DNA of 64,000 bases from Clostridiales bacterium (GTDB lineage: Bacteria; Bacillota; Desulfotomaculia; Desulfotomaculales; VENG01), in assembly GCA_021736985.1 (NCBI GenBank), contig JAIPEW010000010.1, forward strand, positions 1 to 64,000. Reading direction: 5' to 3'. Both the position numbers and the translations under genes were made by a program. Below are positions 41,214 to 59,317 of the stretch, piece by piece. How positions within the stretch are numbered: the stretch's first letter is position 1; every line of letters begins with the position of its first letter. A model generated the notes under the pieces. It saw only the letters and a list, made by a program, of their open reading frames with translations. It had not been told where the DNA came from and ran no database searches.

Positions 41214-41233
41214 GTTATTTTTCCGGCTGTAGA

Positions 41234-41265
41234 AACAGTGCGCTAACTGCGTACTGTTTTTTTTT
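41234..41265 (+). terminator. Intrinsic terminator
   Basis: AACAGTGCGC pairs with GCGTACTGTT (one G-T), 5-nt loop, followed by seven more Ts. Ends the MalT-like regulator transcript. Confidence 0.88.
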
Positions 41266-41396
41266 GCACTTTAGAGTGAATTTAGTACTTTTTTTAGTAC
41301 TTTCGGGTGATAACATCATTTTTTTAATAAGCTAAAATAATAATTGAGTAAATAGGTATTAAAACGACAGATGAAATGAATTAGGGGAATGATGTA

Positions 41397-43709: not shown

Positions 43710-43731
43710 AAGGGGAAATGAGGTTATTGGT

Positions 43732-44880
43732 ATGATTAAGATCTCAAGAATCATTTTTATATTTATACTGCCGTTATTTTTGCTAACTGGATGTTTTGGT
43801 AATGATCTGGGTAAACAAAGGGAAATGCAGGCAGGGAAAGGGGACAGTATCATTATCGGGGTTCCTGTTCCCTATGATTTTGCAAAGGATAATACCGACT
43901 TTTTAAATGGATTAAAGTTAGCCCTTGAAGACATCAATTCCCACGGAGGCGTAAACGGCAAGAAAATTAAGCTGGAAATCGCTGACGACAGGGGAGTTTT
44001 TAAAGATGCAGTAGATACAGCCCAGGATTTTTCCGAGAATACCCGCATGACGGCAGTAATCGGGCACTGGTTTTCGGATATCTGTATTCCGGTAGCTTCC
44101 ATATATGAAGAAGCAGGCATGCCAGTAATAGTTCCCACCGTATCTAACCCTGAATTAATGGAAAAAGATTATCATTACATATTTCAAAATTTACCCAGTG
44201 ACAAAAAAGTGGCTGAACAGATGTGCTTATACGCGAAAAAACAGGAATATAACAACATGGTTATTTATTACGAAGACAGCTTGTACGGCCGAAATCTAGC
44301 AAAAGCTTTTGAGGAAGAAGCCCAAAACAGCGGTATAGAAATCATCGATAGAAGATCAGGTATGGTAAGTAAAAATGGTTTTAAAAGAGCCTATTATAAA
44401 TGGAATGCCTTAAATTTTGACGCTGTCTTTCTGGCCCTGAATATGCCTGAAGGAGCTCAGTTTATAAAACAATTCAGAAAACTTGATCCCGGTACGCCCA
44501 TTTTGTCCGGTGACGGCCTGGATGTAAGCAACTTAATAAAAGTCCTGGGAGAAGATGCAGAAAATCTTGTAATTTCGACTATATATAATCCCTGCGGCGG
44601 GGAATCGAAGTTGAAGGAATTTAAAAAACATTACAGGCAGAAATATAAAGAAGAACCAGATGTATGGGCAATCCAGGGTTATGATTCTCTACAGCTAATT
44701 GCCAGGGCAATTAAAAAAACGGGCAGTTGTTCACCGGTAGAGTTGACTGCTTATCTGCGGAATACGAAAGCAATGAAGCTGGTTTCAGGAAATGTCACTT
44801 TTAACGATGACGGAGAAATCCAGGGAAGAAAAATATATAAGAAAAAAGTGGTAAATAGGGAGTTTGAATATATAGATTGA
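43732..44880 (+). CDS. Orphan periplasmic-binding lipoprotein (Leu/Ile/Val-binding type)
   Basis: 382 residues, lipobox LLTGC (Cys21). The mature part is a type I two-lobed binding protein (IIIGVPVPYDFAKDNTDFLN, GLKLALEDINSHGGVNGKKI, VIGHWFSDICIPVASIYEEA), like branched-chain amino acid receptors. No permease or ATPase for import adjoins, so it may be a signal receptor working with the sensor-transporter or carry an extracellular ligand. It lies 22 bp after the transporter gene. Confidence 0.83.
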   Translation: MIKISRIIFIFILPLFLLTGCFGNDLGKQREMQAGKGDSIIIGVPVPYDFAKDNTDFLNGLKLALEDINSHGGVNGKKIKLEIADDRGVFKDAVDTAQDFSENTRMTAVIGHWFSDICIPVASIYEEAGMPVIVPTVSNPELMEKDYHYIFQNLPSDKKVAEQMCLYAKKQEYNNMVIYYEDSLYGRNLAKAFEEEAQNSGIEIIDRRSGMVSKNGFKRAYYKWNALNFDAVFLALNMPEGAQFIKQFRKLDPGTPILSGDGLDVSNLIKVLGEDAENLVISTIYNPCGGESKLKEFKKHYRQKYKEEPDVWAIQGYDSLQLIARAIKKTGSCSPVELTAYLRNTKAMKLVSGNVTFNDDGEIQGRKIYKKKVVNREFEYID

Positions 44881-44905
44881 TGATATCGCGGGGGAGGTTA
44901 TGACA

Positions 44906-46315
44906 ATGTCTGACAACGGAGTTTTCCGAAAAGTATCCCTGGATAGATTGTCTTCACCGGAAGAATTGGACCAGCGATTAACGGTGACATCACCGGTAGG
45001 CTGGCTCGCCTGTACAGCTGTTGCAATGTTGATTCTGGGAGGTCTTATCTGGGGGATTTTCGGGAAAATACCTGACAAAGCCGTGGGCCAGGGAATTATT
45101 ATTTCCAGCGGGGGTATTGCCAACGTTATCCATCATGCTAGCGGCCAGGTCACTGATGTAAGTGCTCAGGAGGGTGATTACGTAGAAAAGGGTGACGTAA
45201 TCGCCAGGGTGAAGCAAACCGGACTTATCGAAGATATAAACAGACTTAAAGAGGATCGGGAAGTGATAAGAAACCTTAACCCGGATGACCCCCGAATAGA
45301 CAGCGAGATGCTCAATTTCAAGGTGTACGGAGAAATAATAAATATTGCTCAGAGCATTAAGCAGGCCCGGAACAACCTGGAGGTAACTAAAGCAAGTTTA
45401 AGTACTGCTAAAAAGGAAAGGGAAATAAAGCTTGAGCAGGCTAACTGGGAAGTGCAGCAGGCCAGGCTTGAACTTGAGGAAGACCGGGAAGATTACGAGT
45501 CATATAAATATTTATTTGATAAAGGTGCCGTATCAGAACGGGACTTTAAAGAAGCAGAGCGCAGTTATATTTCGAGTAAGGAATACCTGCAAATCAAACA
45601 AGAGAACTTGCAGAACCTGCAATCAGAAGCCAATACATTTTCCCATGCACAGGTTCTTAAAGCAGAGAAAAACCTGCAAATTTTAAAACAGCAGTTTAAA
45701 GATACACTTCTATTAAAAGAAAGGGAACTCCAAAAACTTATTGCTAGAAACCAGGAACAGTTATTTAATAACAGTGAAATTGCAGCCAGTTTTTCCGGCC
45801 GCGTCCTGGAACTGCAGGTTAATAAGGGAGATATGGTTAGAGCCGGCAGCAGTGTTTGCAGTATTGCCAGAGAGGAAAAAGAAGCTAAATCGTTGGAAGC
45901 AGTTCTATACGTACCGTTGGAAAAAGGGAAAAAAATATTACCCGGGACGGAGGTAAATATTTCTCCTACTACTGTTAAAAAAGAAGAAGATGGTTTCATG
46001 CGGGGAAATGTGAAATCAGTTTCCAAATATCCAGCCAGCGCCCGGGGGATGATGCTCACTCTGGGTAACCAGGAACTGGTGAAGCGATTGTCAGGCAAAG
46101 GTGCGCCCATTGAAGTAAAGGTGGAATTAATCAGGGATAACAGTACGGTTAGCAAGTATAAGTGGTCTACCCCCGACGGGCCCGATATGGTAATCGACAG
46201 CGGCACGTTATGTTTAGGAGAAGTTAAAGTAAGACAGCAAAGGCCAATCAGCATGGTTATCCCGTATATAAAGAAAGTTCTGCCTATCTACTTTAGCGCT
46301 CCAGTATTGAGGTGA
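44906..46315 (+). CDS. NHLM-type export adaptor (HlyD family)
   Basis: About 469 residues. One N-terminal membrane helix (about 31-53) is followed by a lipoyl-like half motif (GIANVIHHASGQVTDVSAQEGDYVEKGDVIARV). A long coiled coil (about 105-280) precedes the second half motif and a beta domain. It matches the HlyD-like secretion protein of NHLM peptide-export systems. Start ATG 44906 has better spacing to GGGGGAGG than 44900. Overlaps the next gene at 46312-46315. Confidence 0.88.
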   Translation: MSDNGVFRKVSLDRLSSPEELDQRLTVTSPVGWLACTAVAMLILGGLIWGIFGKIPDKAVGQGIIISSGGIANVIHHASGQVTDVSAQEGDYVEKGDVIARVKQTGLIEDINRLKEDREVIRNLNPDDPRIDSEMLNFKVYGEIINIAQSIKQARNNLEVTKASLSTAKKEREIKLEQANWEVQQARLELEEDREDYESYKYLFDKGAVSERDFKEAERSYISSKEYLQIKQENLQNLQSEANTFSHAQVLKAEKNLQILKQQFKDTLLLKERELQKLIARNQEQLFNNSEIAASFSGRVLELQVNKGDMVRAGSSVCSIAREEKEAKSLEAVLYVPLEKGKKILPGTEVNISPTTVKKEEDGFMRGNVKSVSKYPASARGMMLTLGNQELVKRLSGKGAPIEVKVELIRDNSTVSKYKWSTPDGPDMVIDSGTLCLGEVKVRQQRPISMVIPYIKKVLPIYFSAPVLR

Positions 46316-46320
46316 TTATT

Positions 46321-48483
46321 TTGGCAACAAAGGGTGAGCGAAAAAAAACACCGTCCATATTGCAAATGGAAGCAGTGGAATGTGGTGCTGCTTCCCTGGC
46401 AATGATTTTGGCTTATTATAAAAAATTTGTGTCCCTTGAAGAATTGAGGTTTGACTGCGGAGTTACCAGGGACGGCGTAAAAGCCAGTAATATTCTTAAA
46501 GCAGCCCGCAGGCATGGTTTTAAGGCTAAAGGTTTTCGAATGGAACCGGATGGCCTGAGGGACATGCCCATGCCTTCCATTGTGCACTGGAATTTTAACC
46601 ATTTTGTTGTGCTGGAGGGATTTAAAGACGGTAAAGTTTTTATTAATGACCCTGCCAGCGGGCCCAAGGTGATTTCCGAAGAGGAGTTTGACCTTTCCTT
46701 TACCGGTGTGATTTTAACCTTTGAGCCCGGCCCAGAGTTTCAACCCAGCGGTCAAAAAAGTGATTTTATTGTCTCTTTGAAAAACTGGGTGAAGGGTTCA
46801 AAAACAGCCCTGGTTTACTTAGTCATCGTGGGGTTATTAATGGTTATACCGGGGTTAATTATTCCGGCTTTTTCTAAGATATTTATAGATAGTATTTTAC
46901 TGGCCGGGAAAAATGACTGGCTCAAACCTTTACTGTGGGCCATGGGGATAGTCGTTGTCTTGCAGGCTGCTCTTACCTGGCTGCAGCAGCATTATCTGCT
47001 GAGGATGGAAACAAAAATTGCCCTTTCTAATGCAGGGAAATTTTTCTGGCATATCTTCAGGCTGCCGGTCCTTTTTTTCCAACAGCGTTCTGCCGGTGAT
47101 ATATCCAACAGGATGCAAAGTAATGACCAGGTGGCTGCCTTTCTGTCCCGGGAGCTTGCTGAAACAGCAATTGGTCTTTTGACTTTAGTCTTTTATTTCT
47201 TCGTCATGCTTCAGTACAACGTCTACCTGGCCCTTATCACCCTGTTGATCGGCGGGGTCAACGCTGTGTACCTGGTTTATTCGTCCAACAAGATCGAAAC
47301 CATGAATAAAAAACTGCTGCAGGATAAGGGGAAAACGAGGGGTTTTTCCATTTCGGGTTTATACATTATTGAAACTTTAAAGGCAACGGGTTCTGAATCC
47401 GACTTTTTTGCCAGGTGGTCGGGTTATCACGCAAAAGAAATAAATGCTCAGCAAAAACTGGGCACAACGACTCAAACGCTTTTTCACCTGCCTAATTTTT
47501 TGTCGGATTTTGGCAATGTGATTATCTTGTTTGTAGGTGGACTTTTTATTATCAACGGCCATTTGACTATAGGTTCTTTAATCGCCTTTCAGGCACTGCT
47601 GAAAAGTTTTATGGAACCGGTTAACAAATTGACCCAGATGGGATTGAAAATAAAGCAGGTCCAGGGAGATATCAATCGACTGGAGGATGTTTTCAAGTAC
47701 AAAATTGACGATAACATCAGCCGGGAAGTCTCTTTTGATAACGAGGAATATAATTATAAAAAACTGGAAGGGTATATACAAATAAAGGATTTGACTTTTG
47801 GTTATAATCCCTGGGATCCGTCTCTAATAGATAATTTTAACCTGGATGTGAAACCAGGTTCCAGGGTGGCGCTGGTGGGCGGTTCTGGCAGTGGGAAAAG
47901 TACTGTGGCCAGGCTGGTTACCGGCATTTACGGGCCCTGGTCGGGAGAAATACTATTTGACGGGGTAAACAAAGATGAACTTCCCCGGAATGTGATCATT
48001 AATTCAATGTCCGTAGTGGATCAGGACATTAATATGTTTGACGGTACCATAAGGGAAAACCTTACCATGTGGGATGATACCATACCTGAATTCAATATTA
48101 TACGTGCAGCCAAAGATGCCTGCATCCACGACGATATTGCCGTGCGGGATAAGGGTTATGACCACAGGGTAAGCGAAGGGGGAACAAACTTTAGCGGTGG
48201 TCAGAGACAAAGATTTGAAATAGCCAGGGCTTTAACCGGCGCCCCCTCGATATTAATCCTGGATGAAGCAACCAGCGCCCTGGATGTGCAAACGGAAAAA
48301 AAGGTTGATGAAAACATTCGCCGCCGCGGGTGTACCTGTATTATAGTTGCTCACCGCTTGAGTACAATCCGGGACTGCGATGAAATAATCGTCATGGACA
48401 AGGGTAAAATTGTCCAGCGTGGTACGCACGAGGAATTAAAAAATAGCGGCGGGATGTACGCCGAATTGATTGGTGCCAGTTAA
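46321..48483 (+). CDS. NHLM-type peptidase-containing ABC exporter (C39)
   Basis: 720 residues. The N-terminal C39 peptidase has Cys21 in MEAVECGAASLAMIL and the His/Asp pair in NHFVVLEGF...INDPA. A six-helix membrane domain (about 160-440) is followed by the ATPase: GGSGSGKST, FSGGQRQRFEIARAL, ILILDEATSALD. C39 domains cut leaders after Gly-Gly, and both candidate precursors downstream end their leaders in VAGG. Start is TTG 46321 with GAGGTGA 6 nt upstream. Confidence 0.93.
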   Translation: MATKGERKKTPSILQMEAVECGAASLAMILAYYKKFVSLEELRFDCGVTRDGVKASNILKAARRHGFKAKGFRMEPDGLRDMPMPSIVHWNFNHFVVLEGFKDGKVFINDPASGPKVISEEEFDLSFTGVILTFEPGPEFQPSGQKSDFIVSLKNWVKGSKTALVYLVIVGLLMVIPGLIIPAFSKIFIDSILLAGKNDWLKPLLWAMGIVVVLQAALTWLQQHYLLRMETKIALSNAGKFFWHIFRLPVLFFQQRSAGDISNRMQSNDQVAAFLSRELAETAIGLLTLVFYFFVMLQYNVYLALITLLIGGVNAVYLVYSSNKIETMNKKLLQDKGKTRGFSISGLYIIETLKATGSESDFFARWSGYHAKEINAQQKLGTTTQTLFHLPNFLSDFGNVIILFVGGLFIINGHLTIGSLIAFQALLKSFMEPVNKLTQMGLKIKQVQGDINRLEDVFKYKIDDNISREVSFDNEEYNYKKLEGYIQIKDLTFGYNPWDPSLIDNFNLDVKPGSRVALVGGSGSGKSTVARLVTGIYGPWSGEILFDGVNKDELPRNVIINSMSVVDQDINMFDGTIRENLTMWDDTIPEFNIIRAAKDACIHDDIAVRDKGYDHRVSEGGTNFSGGQRQRFEIARALTGAPSILILDEATSALDVQTEKKVDENIRRRGCTCIIVAHRLSTIRDCDEIIVMDKGKIVQRGTHEELKNSGGMYAELIGAS

Positions 48484-48502
48484 AGTGAAAGGGGGTTGAG
48501 CC

Positions 48503-51187
48503 GTGGACTTTTTATTGAACCTGGAATATAACGAGATAAAAGCTGAAGGGAACAACCCTTTACTTCTTGGTACCGGTAAAATATGGCTGGTTAAAGAAGG
48601 ACAGGTGGACATATTTGCTGCCCGGATTGCAAACGCTGAACCGGCCGGGCGCAGAAAGTACTTATTTTCCGTGCAAGCAGGGGACTTGCTTTCAGGAACT
48701 GAACCTGCTGTCCGGGATGAAAAAGAGTACGGGCTGCTGGCCGTAGGATTTACGGGTACTCGTGTACTGGAAATTGATTTGCAGTCTCTCAATGCTATTA
48801 CAGATGAAAGCCAAAAGAAACTAACGGGTTTACTAAATAGATGGATGAAGAATTGGACCGGTGCGGGTATAACCGAAATTCCGCAAGTTGATTGGGATAC
48901 CGGTTTGAGGCAGCAGCTTGAATCCACTGCATCTTTTAATGAAGCATCTTTTGAACATGTATTGGAAGCATTTATTTCTGAACAACATGAGGAAATATTA
49001 AGAAATAAAATAAAATCAAAAAAAGACCAATCTTTTATGAGAAATGGTCTTAACAGGCTTGTAAGTTCCATGAACCCTAAACAGAAGCTTGATATGGATA
49101 CCGAAGAAGCAGACGATGATGATCTGCTTTATAAAGCCTGTGCGGCCGTGGGGCGGTCTAAAGAAATAAAAATAGTTCCTTCTAAGGGACTAAAAAAATC
49201 AGAATCAAAGGATCCCCTGGGCGACATAGCCAGGGCATCCCAGATTAGGACAAGGCAGGTTATTTTAAAGGATAAATGGTGGAAAGAAGATAACGGGGCT
49301 TTTCTTGCTTACAAAGAAAAAGAAGATGGGGAATACCCGGTAGCCTTGCTGCCCGTTTCACCAAAAAAATATCACTTGTATGACCCTGCTGATGAAAGTA
49401 TGGCAGTTGTAGATGAGAGTGAAGCAAGTACTGTCAAGCCCCATGCCTATACTTTTTACCGGCCTCTTCCTGTAAAAACAATTAGCTATAATGAGCTGCT
49501 CAAATTTTTAGCCAGAGGGATATGGAAAAGGGACATTGCTGCCATTTTGATCATGGGTATTTTGGGTGGATTACTGGGAATGCTGACTCCCGTGGTGACG
49601 GGAAAAATCTTTGATAGTGTTATTCCCGACGGAGAAAAGGTGCTTTTAACCCAGATCGGTTTTTTGCTCATGGCCATTGCAGCAACCACCTTTGCTTTTA
49701 ACCTTACCCGGGCTTTTGCCATGCACCGGATAGAAGGGCGAACAGAGTCCGACCTGCAAGCGGCTGTCTGGGATAGGCTGTTGAGCCTACCCGTACCCTT
49801 TTTTAAGAATTACACTGCCGGTGAACTGGCAGAACGGGGTATGGGTATAAGCAAAATAAGAAGTATCCTGTCTGGAGCGGTTATTAATACGGTCATTTCA
49901 TTTATTTTTTCTATATTTTATTTCTTGCTCTTGTTTTATTACAGCTGGAGATTGGCCCTAATTTGTATGGTTATCGTCATATTTGTTATGGGTATCTCTC
50001 TTTTGTTCGGCTTTTTACAAATCCGCTATGAGCATCAATTAATAGATGTGAAGAACAAGCTGGCAGGAAAGGTTTTTAACTTGCTCAGCGGAGTGAGCAA
50101 AATAAAAACATCGGGGGCAGAAAAGCGAGCTTTTTATAACTGGGCAGAGCAGTTTAGTGAAGTAAGAGATGTCACTTTTAAGAAAGAGAACCTGGGTAAT
50201 AAATTGGAGGTTTTTAATTCAACCGTCAATGTCATAGCAACGGGAATTATTTTTTACAGCGTAATAAAAGTGAAAAAAATAGACCTGGCTCCCGGTGCTT
50301 TTATCGCCTTTAGTACGGCATTTTCAAAATTTTTAAGCTCAATGCTGGAAGTATCTAATGTTGTTTTACAGCTCAACATTATTAAGCCCATATATGAAAG
50401 AATCAGGCCTATACTGGAAACTCCTCCGGAGTTTGACCAGGAAAAGGCAGACCCTGGAGAGCTTGAGGGGAATATAGAGGTAAGTCATGTGAATTTCCGT
50501 TATGAAAAAGATGGCCCACTTATTTTAAATGACGTTACTTTGGAGATCAAGCAGGGGGATTACGTGGGGATTGTAGGGACTTCGGGCAGCGGCAAATCCA
50601 CTCTGTTTAGGATACTACTGGGTTTTGAAAAGCCGGAATCCGGACAGGTCTATTACGACCAGCAAGACTTAGAAAATGTGGATATTCGCGCTGTTCGCCG
50701 GCAGCTGGGTGTAGTACTCCAGGGCGGGCAGCTCATGTCCGGGAGTATTTTTGATAACATCGTCAGTGCTAATCCAGGTTTAACCATTAACCATGCCTGG
50801 GAAGCTGCACGCATGGCGGGTATGGAAGAAGATATCAAAAGCATGCCCATGGGAATGCACACTGTTGTCAGTGAGGACGGCGGCACTCTATCCGGAGGTC
50901 AAAAACAGCGGCTTTTAATTGCCCGGGCCGTTATAACCAGGCCCAAGATTGTATATTTCGATGAAGCTACCAGTGCCCTGGATAATAAAACCCAGAAAAT
51001 TGTAAGTGAAAGCCTGGCCAGTCTAAATGCAACCCGGGTACTCATAGCTCACAGGTTAAGTACAATTGCCGATTGCAGCAAGATAATAGTTTTAGACAGG
51101 GGCCGGGTTGTCGAAAGCGGCACCTATGATGAACTCTTTAAACAAAACGGTTTGTTTACCCAGTTAGTTAAAAGACAGCTTGCTTAA
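48503..51187 (+). CDS. NHLM-type ABC exporter, second ATPase/membrane protein
   Basis: 894 residues. A large N-terminal soluble region (about 1-330) lacks a peptidase. A membrane domain follows (about 345-620), then an ATPase with GTSGSGKST, LSGGQKQRLLIARAV and IVYFDEATSALD. NHLM systems pair such a protein with the C39 exporter, probably as a heterodimer. GTG start after AGGGGG; 19 bp after the C39 gene. Confidence 0.92.
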   Translation: MDFLLNLEYNEIKAEGNNPLLLGTGKIWLVKEGQVDIFAARIANAEPAGRRKYLFSVQAGDLLSGTEPAVRDEKEYGLLAVGFTGTRVLEIDLQSLNAITDESQKKLTGLLNRWMKNWTGAGITEIPQVDWDTGLRQQLESTASFNEASFEHVLEAFISEQHEEILRNKIKSKKDQSFMRNGLNRLVSSMNPKQKLDMDTEEADDDDLLYKACAAVGRSKEIKIVPSKGLKKSESKDPLGDIARASQIRTRQVILKDKWWKEDNGAFLAYKEKEDGEYPVALLPVSPKKYHLYDPADESMAVVDESEASTVKPHAYTFYRPLPVKTISYNELLKFLARGIWKRDIAAILIMGILGGLLGMLTPVVTGKIFDSVIPDGEKVLLTQIGFLLMAIAATTFAFNLTRAFAMHRIEGRTESDLQAAVWDRLLSLPVPFFKNYTAGELAERGMGISKIRSILSGAVINTVISFIFSIFYFLLLFYYSWRLALICMVIVIFVMGISLLFGFLQIRYEHQLIDVKNKLAGKVFNLLSGVSKIKTSGAEKRAFYNWAEQFSEVRDVTFKKENLGNKLEVFNSTVNVIATGIIFYSVIKVKKIDLAPGAFIAFSTAFSKFLSSMLEVSNVVLQLNIIKPIYERIRPILETPPEFDQEKADPGELEGNIEVSHVNFRYEKDGPLILNDVTLEIKQGDYVGIVGTSGSGKSTLFRILLGFEKPESGQVYYDQQDLENVDIRAVRRQLGVVLQGGQLMSGSIFDNIVSANPGLTINHAWEAARMAGMEEDIKSMPMGMHTVVSEDGGTLSGGQKQRLLIARAVITRPKIVYFDEATSALDNKTQKIVSESLASLNATRVLIAHRLSTIADCSKIIVLDRGRVVESGTYDELFKQNGLFTQLVKRQLA

Positions 51188-51208
51188 TAAATATTGAGGT
51201 GTGGTTTA

Positions 51209-52330
51209 TTGGAAGAACAGCTATCGTTTCTACTTGAGAATTATTTTAAGCATACCTGTGTTAATTCATGGCAGGAAATTCCTCTTCCGGATGAACTCTT
51301 TGTGGGAGATTGGGAGGATTATATAGATGAAGTTCACCGGGAAGGGGCCCTGGCTGCACTGCAAAAAAGATTGGTGCAGTTAAAGTTCCCAGTTAAAGAA
51401 GGAATGAGTGAAAACTCTAATTACCAGCTGGCTGCCAGGAAAGGAGCAGATACACTCTTTATGCCGGAAGCAGCCGGGGTTGAGCTGGAAGAGCCTGATA
51501 AGCTTGAAGTATATCTTTACCAAACATTTGCCGGTAAATTACCTGTAATCCAGGTAGGGAACAGGAATGATTTTGAAACCCTGGTTCGCGTGTTTTCCTA
51601 CCGGAATGAACCGGTAAAAGTATCCCCTTCCATGGGTGCTTGTATGATAAAGGGTTACAGCAATTGGGACAGGGTTAAAAAGTATAAAGAAAAATGGTAC
51701 AGGGATAACGGTAATATAGAAAACCTGGATGTCTTATGGAAATTTGAGTTTAAGAAGATGAAATCCCAAACAGAGTTATATCAAGATAAATTTTTAATTA
51801 TCAGCGATAAGGAATACAGCAATATCCCGGCCGGGATGCTGGGTATTTCCGGGGAAGAGTGGCGGCAGTTATCCCTGGTTATTCGCCGGGAACATGAAGC
51901 TGCACATTACTGCACGCTGAGATTATTTGGCTCAGCACGCAATCATTTACTGGATGAGCTGATTGCTGACTTCATGGGTATAATTGCTGCTGCAGGCAGG
52001 TACAGGGCACACTGGTTTCTCTGTTTTATGGGCCTGGAAGATTACCCTGTTTTTCGCCCGGGGGGAAGGTTGGTTAACTACATAAAAAACAAGGAATTAT
52101 CGGCTGAGGCTTTTGAAGAATTAAAGCTTTATGTTAAAAATGCGGCCCACAATATGGAGTCTTTCAGTGAGAAGTATGCCCCTGTTTTTTATAAGGGTGA
52201 GGGAAAATACAAGATGCTGTTGGCCATGTCAAAAACGAATTTAATTGATATAGCATCCGAATATATGGAGGAAAAATTCCTGGAGAATGGATTAAAAGCC
52301 TTCTTGAGAGAAGAGGTGCGAAGATGGTAA
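51209..52330 (+). CDS. HExxH-containing protein of the peptide locus
   Basis: 373 residues, no signal peptide or membrane helix. Around residue 229 it has REHEAAHYCTLRLFGSARNH followed by LLDELIADFMG. An HExxH (His229-Glu230-x-x-His233) with acidic residues about 16-20 residues later looks like a zinc metalloprotease centre. The rest is not recognised. TTG 51209 lies 9 nt after GAGGTG. It sits between the exporter and the sigma factor, overlapping the latter by 7 bp. It could be a dedicated peptidase or modification enzyme. Confidence 0.65.
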   Translation: MEEQLSFLLENYFKHTCVNSWQEIPLPDELFVGDWEDYIDEVHREGALAALQKRLVQLKFPVKEGMSENSNYQLAARKGADTLFMPEAAGVELEEPDKLEVYLYQTFAGKLPVIQVGNRNDFETLVRVFSYRNEPVKVSPSMGACMIKGYSNWDRVKKYKEKWYRDNGNIENLDVLWKFEFKKMKSQTELYQDKFLIISDKEYSNIPAGMLGISGEEWRQLSLVIRREHEAAHYCTLRLFGSARNHLLDELIADFMGIIAAAGRYRAHWFLCFMGLEDYPVFRPGGRLVNYIKNKELSAEAFEELKLYVKNAAHNMESFSEKYAPVFYKGEGKYKMLLAMSKTNLIDIASEYMEEKFLENGLKAFLREEVRRW

Positions 52331-52857
52331 TCGTCAATGTTCCTGCAAAAAAATTAAAATCTGAGATATTATCGGAAATATATAATAAATACTTTCCCAT
52401 GCTTTATAAATACACGCTTTATAAAGTTGGTGCCCCTGAAGTAGCAGAAGATCTAGTCAGCGAAGTTTTTGAAAAAGTGCTGGCCAATTATTATACATAT
52501 AACCCGGATAAGGGCAAATTTAGCACGTGGTTGTTTACTATAGCTAATAATACAATACTTAATTACCATAAAAAAAATGACCGCGATAAGCAGCTCATTG
52601 ATATTGAAAAAATGCAATCAAAGTACCGGCTGGAGGATTTAATAATTGACCGGGAATTGAAGCAATTTCTCTTAACGGCAATCATGTACCTGGATGAGCG
52701 GCAGAGAAATATAATTGCCCTTAAATTCGGTGCCTGCCTGGCAAACCGTGAAATTGCCCGGGTAATGGATTTGACGGAAAGTAACGTAGGAACGATTTTA
52801 TACCGGTCCTTAAAAAAATTAAAGGAGATTTTAAAGGAACAAGGGGTTATTTATTAA
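52324..52857 (+). CDS. Sigma-70-family (ECF-like) RNA polymerase sigma factor
   Basis: 177 residues with sigma region 2 (YFPMLYKYTLYKVGAPEVAED..SEVFEKVLANY...FSTWLFTIANNTILNYHKK) and region 4 (LDERQRNIIALKFGACLANRE, RVMDLTESNVGTILYRSLKKL). It lacks regions 1 and 3, as ECF-type factors do. ATG after GAGGTG. It is co-transcribed with export genes upstream and the small GG-motif proteins downstream, and so probably drives the locus. Its promoter motif was not identified. Confidence 0.9.
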   Translation: MVIVNVPAKKLKSEILSEIYNKYFPMLYKYTLYKVGAPEVAEDLVSEVFEKVLANYYTYNPDKGKFSTWLFTIANNTILNYHKKNDRDKQLIDIEKMQSKYRLEDLIIDRELKQFLLTAIMYLDERQRNIIALKFGACLANREIARVMDLTESNVGTILYRSLKKLKEILKEQGVIY

Positions 52858-52874
52858 GATTTGAGGTGCAGCAA

Positions 52875-53153
52875 ATGAGTGAAAAACATTCCTTGGAAAC
52901 ATTTATTTCATATATAGATAAAGTTGTATCCGGGGAGTCAATTAGTCCTTCCGAGTGCGAGGATTATAATGAAGAAAACAAAGAATTATTATTCCTTGCC
53001 CAACTGTTGGCAAAAGCGGATTATACCCCGGAAAGTAAGGGGGGGCCAGAAAAGATGGAAGGTGAGATGGAAGATGATGAATTGGATATGGTTGCCGGTG
53101 GGATTAAATTAGACGATATATTCGATGAAAAAGGAAAAAAGAATGGTACATAG
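52875..53153 (+). CDS. GG-motif small protein: candidate peptide precursor or cleavable sigma regulator
   Basis: 92 residues from ATG 52875 (AGGTG upstream); a GTG at 52866 is in frame. The N-terminal part (LETFISYIDKVVSGESISP...KELLFLAQLLAKADYTPES) resembles small anti-sigma-like proteins found after sigma genes. The C-terminus has the acidic stretch and double-glycine site DDELDMVAGG (Gly-Gly at 75-76), which would release IKLDDIFDEKGKKNGT (16 residues, no Cys). It directly follows the sigma gene by 17 bp. Precursor, regulator, or both is undecided. Confidence 0.7.
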   Translation: MSEKHSLETFISYIDKVVSGESISPSECEDYNEENKELLFLAQLLAKADYTPESKGGPEKMEGEMEDDELDMVAGGIKLDDIFDEKGKKNGT

Positions 53154-53324
53154 TTGATTAACTAATATTTTAAGAGAAAAGAGTGTGATACTTTTTCATT
53201 TTGATTGTATAAAAGGGTAGTAGATTAATTGTTTAAATTCTTGTATGGAGTAAGCTGGAGGTGAACATACTCGAGTTTAAATGTTAATTTAAAAAAATAT
53301 TACTAAGAAAGGAGCAAAAGTGTA

Positions 53325-53585
53325 ATGGAAAAAAAAGTTGAACAATTGTTAGAGAAGTTGAAGGCAGATGGAGAACTGGCGAAAAAGTTATTCAGCCAGG
53401 ACACTGCTGAAGGTGCGCAGGCAGTATTAAAGGAAAAGGGATTTGATCTTAGTGTGGATGAAATCACAAAGTTAAAAGACACTATCACTAAAGAACTGGA
53501 AAAAGGTGCAGAAGGCGAGCTTTCTGATGATGCCCTGGAAAACGTTGCTGGCGGACATTCAGTCAATATAGATATTAACTGGTAA
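53325..53585 (+). CDS. Nif11-type leader peptide, RiPP precursor
   Basis: 86 residues. The helical leader (MEKKVEQLLEKLKADGELAK..LF...EGAQAVLKEKGFDLS.DEI) matches Nif11-type precursors and ends GELSDDALENVAGG (Gly-Gly at 76-77). The remaining core is HSVNIDINW, nine residues with no Cys, so lanthionine or sactionine rings are excluded. ATG follows GAAAGGAG. A 171-bp gap separates it from the previous small gene, and a strong hairpin follows. Confidence 0.9.
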   Translation: MEKKVEQLLEKLKADGELAKKLFSQDTAEGAQAVLKEKGFDLSVDEITKLKDTITKELEKGAEGELSDDALENVAGGHSVNIDINW

Positions 53586-53610
53586 GATATGAAATAAAAG
53601 TATTATGTCG

Positions 53611-53652
53611 CTCGGGCCCGCCGTATTCTTTGTAAAATACGGCGGGCCCGAG
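53611..53652 (+). ncRNA. Strong intercistronic hairpin after the precursor gene
   Basis: Perfect 17-bp GC-rich stem (53611-53627 with 53636-53652) and 8-nt loop, without a T tract after it. It sits between the precursor and the modification genes. It probably blocks 3' decay or partly terminates, giving more precursor than enzyme message. That effect is inferred. Confidence 0.7.
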
Positions 53653-53704
53653 ACTTATAAAAAAAATAATGAAACTTGGACATGAGATATGGAGGTGATG
53701 CTGC

Positions 53705-54763
53705 TTGGAAGGTAATATGATGAGTTTTTTAGATAAATTTTCTCCCGGCATCCCACCGGAAATACTTGATAATCAATCATACCTTGAGTTAAATAAAATG
53801 GTGTCTTTGTTCAAAGATTTTGTATCGAGACATTATATTTTAGAGACATATCTTGACAGAGATGAGCAGCAGGCAGACTTTTCTTTCTGCATCCGGGCGT
53901 TAGAAAGAGATTTCCTGGTTCGTGCATTTAAAGACCTCCGATTTCAATATCTGGCCGGGGATGAAGTATGGGGGCGGGTTATTAATTTTGTCAATTGCTG
54001 GTCAGCAAAAAATACTCTTGAACATAAACATGTTAATAATATCTGGTTTGAGATGGATTTCGCAGAATATGAAAAAGATATTCCCCAACCGTGTTTATTT
54101 TTTGATGCCTCCCAGGTAAAAAACAGCAGAGTAAGCAATGAGTGGTTATTTGAAACGCTGAAAAAACTGCTTGACAGCAACCTGGTGGATTCGCTGCGGG
54201 ATGAAATAAAAAATGTTATCAGAAATTTGCCGCCCGGGACAGGATTATTTCAAGTGGGAACAATGCTGGCCAGGACTGAAGACAGGGTGAGGATTTTTAC
54301 CCATCAATTAACCAGGGAACAAATAACCGGGTATCTAAAAAATATTGGCTGGCCAGGGGATTCAAGGAAAATAAATAATGTTTTTAATTTTATAGATAAT
54401 TACAGCGACGGTAATTATATTGTCGATTTTGATGTAACCCGGGAAGGCATATCCGAAAAAAGCGGCATTAATTTTGGGTTAAAAAATAATAAAAACCTGT
54501 CCTTTTTCCTGGAAGAGCTGGCTAAACATAATCTGTGCAATGACTTAAAAAAAAGAGGTGTACTTTCATGGAAAGGCAGCAGCTGCCGGTTTTTAGGGCA
54601 AGATTACGGACAAACGGCTCTTTTGAAAAATATCTCGCATTTCAAAGTTGCTTACTTGCCAGGTGAAGGGATTAGAATAAAGGCCTATCTCAAGGTAAAA
54701 GGAGTATATTTAAAAGAATTATTTAAAAATATCGCCGGCAAAGAAACAGCTTTAAACTTTTGA
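53705..54763 (+). CDS. Unrecognised 352-residue protein of the peptide locus
   Basis: Soluble, no membrane segment or signal peptide. Notable stretches are NTLEHKHVNNIWFEMDFAEY, LPPGTGLFQVGTMLARTEDR, IGWPGDSRKINNVFNFIDNY and a C-terminal ISHFKVAYLPGEGIRIKAYL. I do not recognise the family. TTG start 9 nt after GGAGGTGA. Its place between the precursor and the GNAT/radical SAM genes suggests a modification enzyme. There is no Rossmann, YcaO, LanM or prenyltransferase motif I can see. Confidence 0.8.
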   Translation: MEGNMMSFLDKFSPGIPPEILDNQSYLELNKMVSLFKDFVSRHYILETYLDRDEQQADFSFCIRALERDFLVRAFKDLRFQYLAGDEVWGRVINFVNCWSAKNTLEHKHVNNIWFEMDFAEYEKDIPQPCLFFDASQVKNSRVSNEWLFETLKKLLDSNLVDSLRDEIKNVIRNLPPGTGLFQVGTMLARTEDRVRIFTHQLTREQITGYLKNIGWPGDSRKINNVFNFIDNYSDGNYIVDFDVTREGISEKSGINFGLKNNKNLSFFLEELAKHNLCNDLKKRGVLSWKGSSCRFLGQDYGQTALLKNISHFKVAYLPGEGIRIKAYLKVKGVYLKELFKNIAGKETALNF

Positions 54764-54778
54764 GGTGATTATAAAAGA

Positions 54779-55522
54779 ATGATAGAGAAGGGAAAAATAA
54801 TAAATCAACAGGATTTAAAAATTTATTCCTATATAATCAGAGTTCTTGATGTTAATGATATACCTGGAGTTATTGATTTACAGGATTATATAATGAGTTT
54901 AATGAAAAATAAAAGTTTTTGCGTGATCTTATCTTCGGAGGAGCACTACGAAATAATGAGCGTTAGCGGGGAGACTATAGGGCTGTTTATCGGAGACAAG
55001 TTGTATGCGGTATGTTCAATTTTGTTTCCCGGGTACCGTGAGGATAATATGGCCCGGAAACTTAACTTTAGCAGTGAAGAATTGCTGCAAGTGGCGCAGC
55101 TGGAATTATCCATGGTTCATCCCAATTTTCGGGGAAACGATTTGCAAAGAAGAATGGCGGATATGCTGGCCCGGCAGGTGAAAAAGAAAAAGAATTACAG
55201 GTACTTGTTTACAACAGTATCACCATACAACTATCCCAGTATTAAAACGGTTACTTCCATGGGGCTGAACATTACTAAATTATGCAAGATGTATTATCAA
55301 TGGGATAGATATGTTGTGTATAAAGATATTGTTAACCCTTTGAGTTTAGATAAAAATAGTACAATTAATGTATCCAGCACTTTTTTCGAAAAGCAGCAGG
55401 AGTTATTAAACAAAGAATACTTTGGATTTTCACAGTTTAAAGATAAAGATGGCATAAAAATAATGTATGCCCCCAAAATGAGCAGCTGCCAGATTATATA
55501 TAACGAAGGAGAAATGGAATGA
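54779..55522 (+). CDS. GNAT-family N-acyltransferase
   Basis: 247 residues with the GNAT core at about 110-190: QLELSMVHPNFRGNDLQRRM gives the acyl-CoA-binding FRGNDLQ loop (usual RxxGxG/A, here G-N-D), preceded by the beta strand and followed by YLFTTVSPYNYPSIKTVTSMG. It could acylate a Lys or an N-terminal amine of the peptide, as GNAT maturases do in other RiPPs. ATG after GAGGTGAT; its stop overlaps the radical SAM start. Confidence 0.82.
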   Translation: MIEKGKIINQQDLKIYSYIIRVLDVNDIPGVIDLQDYIMSLMKNKSFCVILSSEEHYEIMSVSGETIGLFIGDKLYAVCSILFPGYREDNMARKLNFSSEELLQVAQLELSMVHPNFRGNDLQRRMADMLARQVKKKKNYRYLFTTVSPYNYPSIKTVTSMGLNITKLCKMYYQWDRYVVYKDIVNPLSLDKNSTINVSSTFFEKQQELLNKEYFGFSQFKDKDGIKIMYAPKMSSCQIIYNEGEME

Positions 55523-56751
55523 GAAGAATAATCAGGGCTGAACCGGGATACTTAGCCTGTTATTACCTGGATAAAAGAAAAAAAAGTACTATTGCCGGTA
55601 AGAATCTGGAATTGTTGGAACAATGGTTAACAACAGGAGAAGAAAATGATGCAATCGTTCAACTAAAGAACAAGGGTGTTGTAAATACCGGGCATTTCAA
55701 AGATGAGAAAGAAAATCTAATGGAATTAATAACCCGGTGCAGGCAAGTTGAGGCGCCTTTGCGTTCACTCAAAGTTCCAGAGTCGATGAACATAGAATTA
55801 ACAGACCGCTGCCCGTTAAGATGCCCGCAGTGTTATTGCCATCTAAATGAAGGCAAAGACATAAAAAAGGAAACAGCATTAAAATATATAGAAGAAGCGG
55901 CCCGCTTGCAAATTCCTTATATTAATATGTGCGGGGGGGAAACCATGGTTTACCCCTATCTTACAGATTTAATAGAATTTATAAGCAGTAAAGGGCTACA
56001 TTCAGCCATAGCCATTAGCGGCTGGGGATTTAACCAGGATAAGCTGAAAGAATTAAAAAGAGCTGGAATTGACGAGATTTTTGTTTCTTTAAACGGTTCC
56101 ACGGAAGAAGTTAATTCTCTATCACGGGACGGCTATCATAAGGCGATTAATACTTTACAAGTATTACAAGCTGATCAGGAAGTTAATTATTATATCAACT
56201 GGGTGGCCAGAAATGATAATGTCGCTGATTTCCCCCGGCTTGTAAACCTGGCCCAAAATTACGGGGTAAAGCGCGTATATATACTGACTTGCAAGCCTGA
56301 TGCATCTAATGTAATCCAGGAATCATTAAGTAAAGATAATTTCCTTTTTCTTGCTGATTTTATAAAAAATTTTGATAGCCAGGAAATAAGTCTCATGGTG
56401 GAATCATGCTATTCTCCTCTTCGTGCTTATATTTATAACTATTACTTCTTCAATCGCAATACCGGTGAAAATATGGGGTGCGGTGCCGGGCGTAAAGGAA
56501 TAACGGTGGATTTGGATGGTAACTTTATACCTTGCAATCACCTGGTGCACCCTGAAAAGTTTGACAGTATTGATGAATACTGGTGGAATTCAAAGATCCT
56601 GGATAATCTCCGTAGATATGAGGAACATAAGGAGGAACCGTGCCGCAGCTGCCATTTGACTAATAATTGCCGGTCATGTCGAGCCGTGGGAGAAAAGGTT
56701 TATCACAACCTTTACAGCGGCCATAAACATTGTCACGTTCCATATTTGTAA
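55519..56751 (+). CDS. Radical SAM/SPASM peptide maturase
   Basis: 410 residues. N-terminal 80 residues resemble a PqqD-like leader-binding module (RRE). The radical SAM motif is CPLRCPQC (Cys98, 102, 105) and MCGGETMVYP the glycine motif. A C-terminal SPASM-type Cys set follows (MGCGAGRKGI, FIPCNHLV, CRSCHLTNNCRSCRA, CHVPYL). SPASM enzymes usually modify ribosomal peptides. The four-base overlap with the GNAT gene shows tight coupling. Confidence 0.93.
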   Translation: MRRIIRAEPGYLACYYLDKRKKSTIAGKNLELLEQWLTTGEENDAIVQLKNKGVVNTGHFKDEKENLMELITRCRQVEAPLRSLKVPESMNIELTDRCPLRCPQCYCHLNEGKDIKKETALKYIEEAARLQIPYINMCGGETMVYPYLTDLIEFISSKGLHSAIAISGWGFNQDKLKELKRAGIDEIFVSLNGSTEEVNSLSRDGYHKAINTLQVLQADQEVNYYINWVARNDNVADFPRLVNLAQNYGVKRVYILTCKPDASNVIQESLSKDNFLFLADFIKNFDSQEISLMVESCYSPLRAYIYNYYFFNRNTGENMGCGAGRKGITVDLDGNFIPCNHLVHPEKFDSIDEYWWNSKILDNLRRYEEHKEEPCRSCHLTNNCRSCRAVGEKVYHNLYSGHKHCHVPYL

Positions 56752-56785
56752 AATTTAATTTTTGCCGTAAAGAAGGGGTGACCCT

Positions 56786-57952
56786 GTGCTGAGAAAAATA
56801 ATAATAATCTCTTGTATTGTAATTGGGTTGTTAGCTATAAATTTGAGCGGGTTAATTGCCCTTAGTCCTTCTTCTGCTTCAGGCAGCAGCGATAATCTTA
56901 CCCCTGTTACCAGGTCAGACGGCACCAGGTGGCAAATAGGTTATTGTGAAAGCGAAAATTTTATTACTTATACTAAAACACTGGTGGGAATTGTCAATGC
57001 CTTAAGAGAAAGGGGTTGGATTACTGACCTGGATGGATTCGACAGTGTAAGTGAAAGCAGCGACAGCAGGGAAATCTGGCGATGGCTGGCAAACCGCAAT
57101 GTAAGTCCTTATATTGAATTTGTTGATGAAGCCTTTTACAACTTAAAAAATGCCGGTAGCAGTGAAGATGTTGTTAATCGCTTTAATGCACAGAATGATC
57201 TGGATATTATGATGGTAATGGGAACGCAGGCGGGCGTAGTGTTAGGCAGTAATGATAATGATACTGATATCTTTGTTTTTGCTGCTTCCAATGCGGTGCG
57301 TTCAGGGATCATTGATTCTGTGGAAGATTCAGGACGGGAGCACGTATGGGCCCATATGGACCCTACCCGCTTTGAGCGGCAGTTAAACGTGTTTTACGAT
57401 ATAATAAATTTTAAAAAACTGGGAATGGTTTACGAGGATTCCGATATAGCAAGGGTTTACTCGGCAGTAAGTGAAGTTGAAAAACTTGCCGGGGAAAAAG
57501 GGTTTGAAATTGTTCGCTATTATGTAGATGAACCGCGAAGCCCGGAGGATTACCCGCGATATTACCGGGAAGTTCAGGAAGCATACGATAAGCTGGCAAC
57601 TTGCGTTGATGCCATGTTCGTTACCATTGCTTCGCTGGAAAGTAAAAAGCTGCCGCAGTTATTTACACCTTTTTATGAAAAAAATGTACCTGTATTTTCT
57701 CAACTGGGGAATGTAGAAGTTCAACACGGGGCATTGATGACGGTATCTGTAATGGATGAATTAAACATAGGGCGTTTCGGAGCTGATAAAATAATTAAAT
57801 CTCTTAAGGGGGCTAACCCCTGGGAATTAACACAAAAATTTCAATGTGCGCCGAGAATCGTATTTAATTCAAAAGTTGCTCAAAGGATAGATTTTAAAAT
57901 TCCTTTTAAATTAATTATTGTGACTGATGAGGTTTATGGTACAATTCCCTAA
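56786..57952 (+). CDS. Second orphan ABC-type binding protein
   Basis: 388 residues: signal peptide/anchor helix (about 5-27, no lipobox Cys), then a binding-protein fold of the ABC_sub_bind type (WQIGYCESENFITYTKTLVG, VMGTQAGVVLG, KKLGMVYEDSDIARVYS). Like the protein at 43732 it has no importer partners. GTG start after AAGGGGTGA, 34 bp after the radical SAM gene, so it is the likely last gene of the operon. Receptor or carrier role is inferred. Confidence 0.8.
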   Translation: MLRKIIIISCIVIGLLAINLSGLIALSPSSASGSSDNLTPVTRSDGTRWQIGYCESENFITYTKTLVGIVNALRERGWITDLDGFDSVSESSDSREIWRWLANRNVSPYIEFVDEAFYNLKNAGSSEDVVNRFNAQNDLDIMMVMGTQAGVVLGSNDNDTDIFVFAASNAVRSGIIDSVEDSGREHVWAHMDPTRFERQLNVFYDIINFKKLGMVYEDSDIARVYSAVSEVEKLAGEKGFEIVRYYVDEPRSPEDYPRYYREVQEAYDKLATCVDAMFVTIASLESKKLPQLFTPFYEKNVPVFSQLGNVEVQHGALMTVSVMDELNIGRFGADKIIKSLKGANPWELTQKFQCAPRIVFNSKVAQRIDFKIPFKLIIVTDEVYGTIP

Positions 57953-57953
57953 G

Positions 57954-57983
57954 TAATCTAATCTAATCTAATCTAATTTAATC
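57954..57983 (+). repeat. 5-bp tandem repeat (TAATC)
   Basis: Six units of TAATC, one with a T variant, starting two bases after the stop codon of the binding-protein gene. Confidence 0.75.
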
Positions 57984-58010
57984 CGTGATGAATTTGTTAA
58001 GTGGCTTTTT

Positions 58011-58262
58011 CCAGTGATAGCATTAACCCTCGTTAAGTACCTTCAAACTAACATGCCTGGCAAGATTTTTTTAATAAGATATTTAACCACTTTTCCGCTG
58101 TTTTACCTGGCCTAACGTCCGAGGTAATCAGAATTTCAACCAGCATCTATATATGTGCCTTTTTCTACTAATTTTTAAAAAGATACATATAAGCATGTTA
58201 TGCCTATATTTACGGTATCATTATAAAAAGCTAATGCATTTTTTTTATACGGTGTGAATATG
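58011..58262 (-). pseudogene. Decayed, internally deleted duplicate of the methyltransferase gene
   Basis: 58011-58138 closely matches 59741-59868, the 3' end and flank of the methyltransferase gene, including AGTGATAGCATTAACC and TGTTTTACCTGGCCT. 58206-58252 matches its 5' end near 60312-60359 (AAAAAGC.AATGCATTTTTTT). About 450 bp of the middle are missing. It lies in the 470-bp gap 57953-58420, which otherwise shows nothing. Confidence 0.75.
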
Positions 58263-58420
58263 AGACTATAAAAAAACCTTCGTAGTTATTTGTGAAGGCT
58301 TATAACTAACTATAATAATCAGAGTGGGAAGACGTAAGATGATTTTTTTATTGAACATAAGGTAATACTATGTTAAACAAAGACTATAATATATTTTTAA
58401 TTATTATTTAGGAATATCAT

Positions 58421-59317
58421 CTATAATTTAGGAAATGAAATTCCGCCAAATGCCTGGTGTGTTAAACCAATAATAACAAAAGCATCTTGATCAATTTGTC
58501 CAATGATATTCTTAAGCTCATTAATCTGAGAACGATGAATAACGCAATAAAGCATAGTACATTGCTTTTTCGTGTATCCTCCGGTTACTTCCCATTCAGT
58601 TACTCCTTTTTCAAGTTCCTCCATAAAAGCACTTTTGAGAGTACCTGGATTTTCAGTGATCACCATAGCTGAGCGAACCTGGCTAGATCCTTCCAGTACA
58701 AAATCAGCAGCAACCCCGCTGAAGAATAAACTGATAAATGCTAGTAAAGACATTTCCCAACCAAAAATAATTCCTGCTGATAATATTATTAATGAATCGG
58801 TGTATAAAAATGTCTGGCTTAAAGGAAGTCCAGTCTTGTTTTGTATAATTCTACCAATAATTGTGGTGCCGGGGAAACAACCACCTCCCTTAAAAATCAG
58901 GCCATTTCCGAGTCCAAAGACAATCCCGGCATAGAAAGCACTGAGAAGAATATTGTCAGTAATAGGGTAATTAGACATCAGTTTTGGCATCAGGTAAATA
59001 AAAATATCTGTAGCAAATGAAAATACTAAAAGCGACAATATTACAGAAAATATAAATTTCCAGCGGTCCAGGTTATAAAAACCTAAAATAACCAGGGGTA
59101 TATTCATGATTAGAAAAAGTATACCTTCAGACCAACCTGTAAAATGATTTACTATAATAGCAAGACCACTTAATCCTCCTGCTGTAATATTAAACGGTAC
59201 TTGAAACAATGTATAACCTAGCGCTGTCACTAAAGCCCCAAAGGCAATTAAACCCTGCTGTCTAAAAAAATACAATATTTTATTGTTTATTTTAAAATTT
59301 AGTTTTTTTGGTTCCAT
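58421..59317 (-). CDS. YitT-family membrane protein
   Basis: About 298 residues with six membrane segments (FGALVTALGYTLFQVPFNIT, GGLSGLAIIVNHFTGW and others). A C-terminal soluble DUF2179 domain follows (VTGGYTKKQCTMLYCVIHRS, IDQDAFVIIGLTHQAFGGISF). Function in Bacillus relatives is unclear. ATG 59317 preferred because AAGAAGGA lies 7 nt upstream; the frame opens at 59341. Confidence 0.88.
   Translation of the reverse strand: MEPKKLNFKINNKILYFFRQQGLIAFGALVTALGYTLFQVPFNITAGGLSGLAIIVNHFTGWSEGILFLIMNIPLVILGFYNLDRWKFIFSVILSLLVFSFATDIFIYLMPKLMSNYPITDNILLSAFYAGIVFGLGNGLIFKGGGCFPGTTIIGRIIQNKTGLPLSQTFLYTDSLIILSAGIIFGWEMSLLAFISLFFSGVAADFVLEGSSQVRSAMVITENPGTLKSAFMEELEKGVTEWEVTGGYTKKQCTMLYCVIHRSQINELKNIIGQIDQDAFVIIGLTHQAFGGISFPKL

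Follow-up and report, generated by a model that had tools for sequence, protein, structure and literature searches.

A sigma-linked small protein with an exporter-docking end as a candidate anti-sigma factor for RiPP precursor expression

A small gene next to an ECF sigma factor gene encodes a 92-residue protein whose C-terminus carries the recognition code of the peptide exporter encoded upstream. We conceived that the protein could be a soluble anti-sigma factor whose cargo-mimicking end makes precursor transcription depend on the exporter's state, and we regard the odds of this as even. The more specific idea of a new anti-sigma class that senses a peptide exporter, in which the C39 domain binds the leader-like C-terminus, a vacant exporter releases sigma and precursors compete, seems to us slightly less probable than that. 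Here ‘the window’ refers to the whole stretch of DNA that was analysed, 64,000 nucleotides long. In it, the exporter, sigma and small genes form one apparent transcription unit, followed by a predicted sigma promoter and then a precursor gene (Table 1), a gene order that suggests export-coupled logic.

The proposed course has four steps. First, the N-terminal helical domain of the small protein would keep sigma inactive, and its flexible C-terminus, which imitates the end of an NHLP/Nif11 leader, would dock on the C39 peptidase domain of the same-operon exporter. Second, an assembled, unoccupied exporter would capture the anti-sigma protein, and GG forms would probably be cut. Third, this capture would free sigma, allowing Nif11/NHLP precursor genes to be transcribed from the promoter at 53184-53212. 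Fourth, with more and more precursor competing for the docking groove, the system would turn off again. We infer the inhibition of sigma, the docking in the cell, its role as the release signal and the direction of the effect; together they suggest that the peptide genes are on only when the exporter is ready. If the proposal is true, a built-in checkpoint would match RiPP precursor synthesis to export capacity. The conserved sigma/anti-sigma-like pair carries the exporter's own recognition code, which, together with the defined sigma promoter, makes export-coupled transcription directly testable.

The sequence-only reading of this DNA had described a sigma gene followed by a 92-residue protein with a GG motif and a 16-residue tail, and both genes were found where it had placed them. 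The sigma ORF contains Sigma70_r2 (E=5e-17) and r4_2 (E=2.5e-9) Pfam domains, its top NCBIfam match is the BldN family (TIGR02952, E=9.6e-38, 129.7 bits, under the 206-bit cut-off), and its closest solved structure is sigma-BldN (6dxo_A, E=6.5e-16). The small gene adjoins its 3′ end and starts with the ATG at 52875, six bases past GAGGTG. A longer GTG start at 52866 was rejected, as it falls within this ribosome site. The protein, ending in ...MEDDELDMVAGG and the tail, matches no Pfam family and no NCBIfam family above cut-off, and no hydrophobic segment or membrane anchor was found in its 92 residues. An AF2 monomer model has helices at 3-19 and 33-47 followed by a flexible segment, a layout compatible with the anti-sigma and docking mechanism, weakly so as the model itself is weak (pLDDT 63.5).

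Table 1 Features of the exporter, sigma and precursor locus in the window
Feature	Position	Strand	Basis
Substrate-binding-protein-like gene (Peripla_BP_6)	43732..44880	+	Pfam PF13458 E=9.8e-46; conserved beside HlyD gene in related loci
HlyD-type subunit of NHLM exporter	44900..46315	+	TIGR03794, 354 bits, cut-off 156
NHLM ABC1 exporter with C39 peptidase domain	46312..48483	+	TIGR03796, 1090 bits, cut-off 853
NHLM ABC2 exporter subunit	48503..51187	+	TIGR03797, 948 bits, cut-off 709
DUF7005 protein, HExxH signature	51194..52330	+	PF22541 E=1.7e-129; end overlaps sigma gene start
BldN-type ECF sigma factor, 177 aa	52324..52857	+	NCBIfam, Pfam, solved relative sigma-BldN
Ribosome-binding site GAGGTG of small gene	52863..52868	+	Read directly
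Small protein, 92 aa, proposed soluble anti-sigma factor	52875..53153	+	29 soluble homologues; N-domain common to TM/DUF4367 proteins
Exporter-docking motif EGEMEDDELDMVAGG, residues 62-76 (M-12, L-7, V-4, GG)	53058..53102	+	Conservation, matrix score
16-residue tail IKLDDIFDEKGKKNGT after GG	53103..53150	+	Moderately conserved in clade A; differs in other clades
Predicted ECF-sigma promoter, -35 TGTGAT, 16-bp spacer, -10 TGTATAA	53184..53212	+	Conserved after small gene
Nif11-type RiPP precursor, leader end EGELSDDALENVAGG; predicted target of the sigma factor	53325..53585	+	TIGR03798 E=4.7e-10, 39.6 bits, cut-off 32.3

Searches of relatives, the class and the phylum, together with reading of loci, yielded 29 soluble and 2 membrane-anchored homologues in related Firmicutes; genes of the same sigma family and of an NHLM (C39) exporter lie next to most of the soluble ones. 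Six types were distinguished. Clade A, the window type (n=13), has GG and in most members a tail starting [VIL][NK]L[ND]; type B (n=4; G068, G074, G096, G099) has GG and a short charged tail; type C (n=5; G008, G075 twice, G057, G059) has GG and, where complete, a Cys-rich tail. In type D (n=5; G022, G039, G063, G097 and the second copy of G036) VAAG or VAAA replaces VAGG, and type E (n=2; G196 and the second copy of G047) has VSAA or VVAA followed by a zinc-ribbon-like tail. In type F (G034, G296) the N-domain is the same and leads into one TM segment and DUF4367; these proteins are encoded directly 3′ of the same sigma family. G034 carries a second sigma/TM-DUF4367-like pair.

Sigma adjoins the small gene in most loci. 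The two are apart in G068, G096, G099 and G059, where a close sigma is encoded elsewhere in the genome; three of these four have it on the contig of the small gene. The genome of one homologue (G038) has neither the cognate sigma nor the exporter, and in G025 sigma and its promoters are present and the small gene was not found. Among 161 pattern matches in IMG/VR there was no relative, and plasmids gave no match; a scan of GTDB contigs gave one relative.

The VAGG signal had been noted as the same in the small protein and the Nif11 precursor. For scoring the motif, 34 GG-type sequences from related loci were compiled into a 15-position matrix; one of these sequences (L054) is itself a small-protein homologue. 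The small-protein motif scored 36.7 bits, far beyond chance: among 194 window ORFs, only the Nif11 precursor scored higher (45.2), and the next scored 3.9. Recognition by C39 has been measured to depend on V-4, L-7 and L-12, a charged substitution abolishing cleavage at -4 and strongly reducing it at -7 (PMC6363468). The small protein has V-4, L-7 and M-12; V-4 and L-7 recur in its relatives, where -12 is L, M, I or F. By its sequence, the C-terminus is thus a true C39-type docking motif.

The motif is also the part under the strongest constraint. Whether the tail or the N-terminal part is conserved had been raised beforehand as the point to settle by alignment; the motif exceeds both, as mean pairwise identity in clade A is 0.73 in the motif, 0.63 in residues 31-50, 0.50 in residues 1-20, 0.34 in the tail and 0.21 in the linker. 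The clade-A pN/pS values, rough because synonymous sites are near saturation, are 0.24 (motif), 0.40 (N-part), 0.49 (tail) and 0.72 (linker). In the GG-less type D, too, the motif has the lowest value (0.17), and in type C it about equals the N-part (0.28 and 0.26), making it lowest in two of the three judgeable comparisons, the lone type-B pair being too close to judge.

GG is kept in 22 of the 29 soluble homologues, and in the other seven it is AG or AA with the docking residues retained, suggesting that binding rather than cleavage is the conserved property. By the usual GG/GA/GS rule, Ala at -2 is expected to impair cleavage. These numbers bear on how sigma would be released. The sequence-only reading had proposed that cleavage and export of the tail could control sigma, and in a FlgM-like course the exporter would cut after GG and export the tail or the whole protein, the lost anti-sigma activity freeing sigma. 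The majority with GG, the intact catalytic Cys of C39 and the conserved start of the clade-A tail agree with such processing. However, with only the tail cut off, the N-domain would stay in the cytosol, the tails are wholly different between clades (short and charged, or Cys-rich), and the GG-less members otherwise keep the docking motif. Because of these members, and because the tail is less constrained than the motif, tail cleavage and export is unlikely as a conserved mechanism, and we consider the FlgM-like course improbable. That reading had named homologues without GG and a hypervariable tail as signs against itself; the former exist, whereas the clade-A tail is not hypervariable. A link between secretion and transcription, which it had also proposed, is kept in the docking reading; it is the tail-export route that fits poorly, and docking on the exporter, rather than tail export, is probably the conserved function. 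The earlier idea is supported in part, and what it had noticed is real and conserved.

The pair is tied to the C39 exporter as had been suspected. Of the 29 soluble cases, all but the second G036 copy were read in their surroundings, and 21 have an NHLM ABC1 exporter gene within the same ~20-kb stretch; three further cases are at contig ends (G020, G057, G097), and the small gene is without an adjacent NHLM ABC1 in G030, G059 and the second copy of G047. Among 113 genomes of the class, counted at the profile-A1 threshold, the exporter is present in 18 of the 20 with a non-TM member vs 11 of the 93 others (Fisher p=1.5e-11, uncorrected for kinship; one of the 18 exporters is two contig fragments and 2 of the 11 are partial genes). 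A later search and further loci added G059, G063 and G074, all with the exporter. The Peptidase_C39 domain of the window exporter (E=2.8e-39) has its catalytic Cys intact in QMEAVECG, and this Cys is intact in all 19 exporters aligned. Some NHLM operons lack the sigma/small-protein pair, so the pair would be an accessory control.

The exporter is not the only possible reader of such an end. Leader-binding enzymes also read the same leader part as the docking motif, and the leader-like end of a sigma partner could thus serve a maturation enzyme or the protein DUF7005, whose gene adjoins the sigma and small genes in many loci and whose HExxH motif is peptidase-like. However, NHLM operons that lack the pair (L073, L074) also encode DUF7005, several loci that have the pair (L053, L054, L055) yielded no DUF7005, and it is precisely the positions of C39 recognition that are conserved (PMC6363468). 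We judge this course clearly less probable than the FlgM-like one. Every intact DUF7005 copy keeps an HExxH...DELIAD-like signature, which makes the protein a possible zinc metallopeptidase of NHLM clusters.

The small protein might also be just a second, divergent RiPP precursor, the alternative that the sequence-only reading had offered. It does share the leader end of NHLP/Nif11 precursors (TIGR03793, TIGR03798), the docking-helix residues and VAGG, and its gene is beside the exporter and the Nif11 precursor. A long leader would then resemble an anti-sigma domain by chance, and the tail would be the product. Yet neither the Nif11 nor the NHLP leader model matched it at E<=0.1, and the N-domain recurs in the TM/DUF4367 proteins whose genes follow the same sigma family. 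The small protein occurs once per sigma and beside it, whereas true precursors vary in number and core. Unlike a typical, hypervariable core peptide, the tail has a start conserved in most of clade A with the pN/pS given above; it is charged and partly conserved there and zinc-ribbon-like in others. We therefore disfavour the second-precursor alternative, rating it marginally below the DUF7005 one. An anti-sigma factor fused to the leftover of a precursor gene, with a functionless motif, would be plausible as a gene fusion beside precursor genes, but is very improbable as the motif is the most conserved segment in 29 members of several clades.

The N-terminus had been likened to small proteins encoded after sigma genes, and it is indeed the N-domain of a family encoded after BldN-type ECF sigma factors. 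This domain matches the TM+DUF4367 proteins of G034 and G296 with profile E=1.8e-5 and 4.0e-4. Their TM-anchored topology is classical for ECF anti-sigma factors. Soluble anti-sigma factors are reported to arise by loss of the membrane part (PMC8103513), and these two points together are the main reason that we call the N-domain anti-sigma. The TM+DUF4367 proteins themselves would be anti-sigma factors judging from topology and position, and the small protein is likely one for the adjacent BldN-type sigma, as far as sequence comparison can tell.

Known pairs offer partial parallels. The MibX/MibW-type lantibiotic clusters of actinobacteria are RiPP clusters controlled by an ECF sigma/anti-sigma pair, as proposed for the window pair; unlike the small protein, MibX/MibW-type anti-sigma factors are membrane proteins and are not known to carry a leader-like end. 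The RsbN/sigma-BldN pair of Streptomyces, of the ASDIII anti-sigma class, resembles the window pair in combining a BldN-type sigma with an adjacent small helical putative partner, and we know of no exporter-docking motif there. RsbN is membrane-anchored (PMC8103513), whereas the small protein has no anchor and no detectable sequence similarity to it. In PDB profile searches with the small-protein family, no solved anti-sigma domain and no RsbN sequence match were found (best weak E=0.15); the weak matches include Nif11 and NHLP leader peptides, aligned at the GG end.

The promoter connects sigma to the precursors. TGTGAT-N16-TGTATAA occurs 3′ of the small gene in 12 of 13 clade-A loci, whichever gene comes next, the copies of G070 and G139 having three mismatches in fixed positions. 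Where the Nif11 gene is displaced (G036, G070), a second promoter copy lies 80-90 bp upstream of it. Genome-wide with at most one mismatch, all of the clade-A matches listed are within this locus. The element is absent from a sigma-70 scan list, as expected because it is of ECF type. A search upstream of the exporter genes gave no clade-A promoter, and these genes are therefore probably controlled separately.

In the other sigma clade the form is TGTAAT-N16-CGTATTA with an identical spacer, located upstream of sigma in G022, G063, G097, the second copy of G036, G296 and, exactly, one of the two G034 pairs, and also in front of many Nif11/NHLP genes. The count was limited to perfect sites, because single-mismatch sites are about as many as in the reversed-pattern control. 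There are 57 perfect sites in 16 genomes vs ~3 expected (control counts divided by 40); 47 of the 57 share a contig with a gene for sigma, the small protein or NHLM, no link is evident for three, and G008 has 12 within ~106 kb of its small gene. When 60 distinct TGTAAT-N16-CGTATTA/G sites were read by an automatic rule, 26 were directly 5′ of sigma, GG-precursor or small-protein genes; the remaining 34 include several precursors missed by the rule, exporter or maturation genes, and some unexplained sites. In G036 and G047, which have both sigma clades, both promoter forms occur, each at its own locus; the form thus follows the sigma clade, tying promoter to sigma by sequence. The distribution strongly argues that sigma drives the Nif11/NHLP precursor genes, and we regard the sigma and promoter parts of the reading as strong. 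The promoter, being writable and searchable, is also a pointer to RiPP genes across these bacteria.

In the flagellar FlgM/sigma-28 checkpoint, late cargo is made only once export is ready. If the docking reading is right, an anti-sigma factor would likewise be read by an export machine, and the predicted promoter sites upstream of Nif11/NHLP precursor genes parallel a FlgM-type regulon of late export cargo. No homology is claimed, as FlgM uses the flagellar type III system and the window system a C39-ABC exporter, and for the small protein docking rather than export is the reading that we favour. The FlgM-type checkpoint idea would, if this is true, extend to ABC exporters. Searches of open-access papers turned up neither an anti-sigma factor described as having a double-glycine motif nor a published precedent for one with an exporter-cargo mimic; the word sigma is absent from the founding NHLP paper.

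Several further observations were made in related loci. G036 has two sigma/small-protein pairs (L177, L042), each with its own promoter form beside its own precursor gene. In G008 (L146-L150, about 2.378-2.470 Mb), twelve perfect sites in ~92 kb, several preceding NHLP precursors and some other genes, mark a predicted large RiPP regulon island. In G074 (L070 5493-5879), repeats (ELDDDELDDGELDDDELDDGELDDGELDRVAGG) enlarge the small protein's docking region. In G068 (L053 10009-10174), the promoter is followed by an apparent short sigma-gene remnant and then the small gene, the full sigma gene being ~12 kb away on the same contig. Cys-rich or zinc-ribbon-like tails follow the motif in types C, D and E (L055-L057, L060, L061, L051, L064), suggesting a metal or redox input.

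In the window, an Rfam scan of 41000-58500 gave nothing. A large MalT/LuxR-type regulator gene upstream of the cluster (38565-41213) may control the exporter genes, which have no sigma-type promoter. Also conserved around the exporter (41397-44880 and 56786-57952) are an MFS protein that has an additional N-terminal region and two proteins resembling substrate-binding proteins (PF13458, PF04392), all of them unusual partners for a RiPP export operon.
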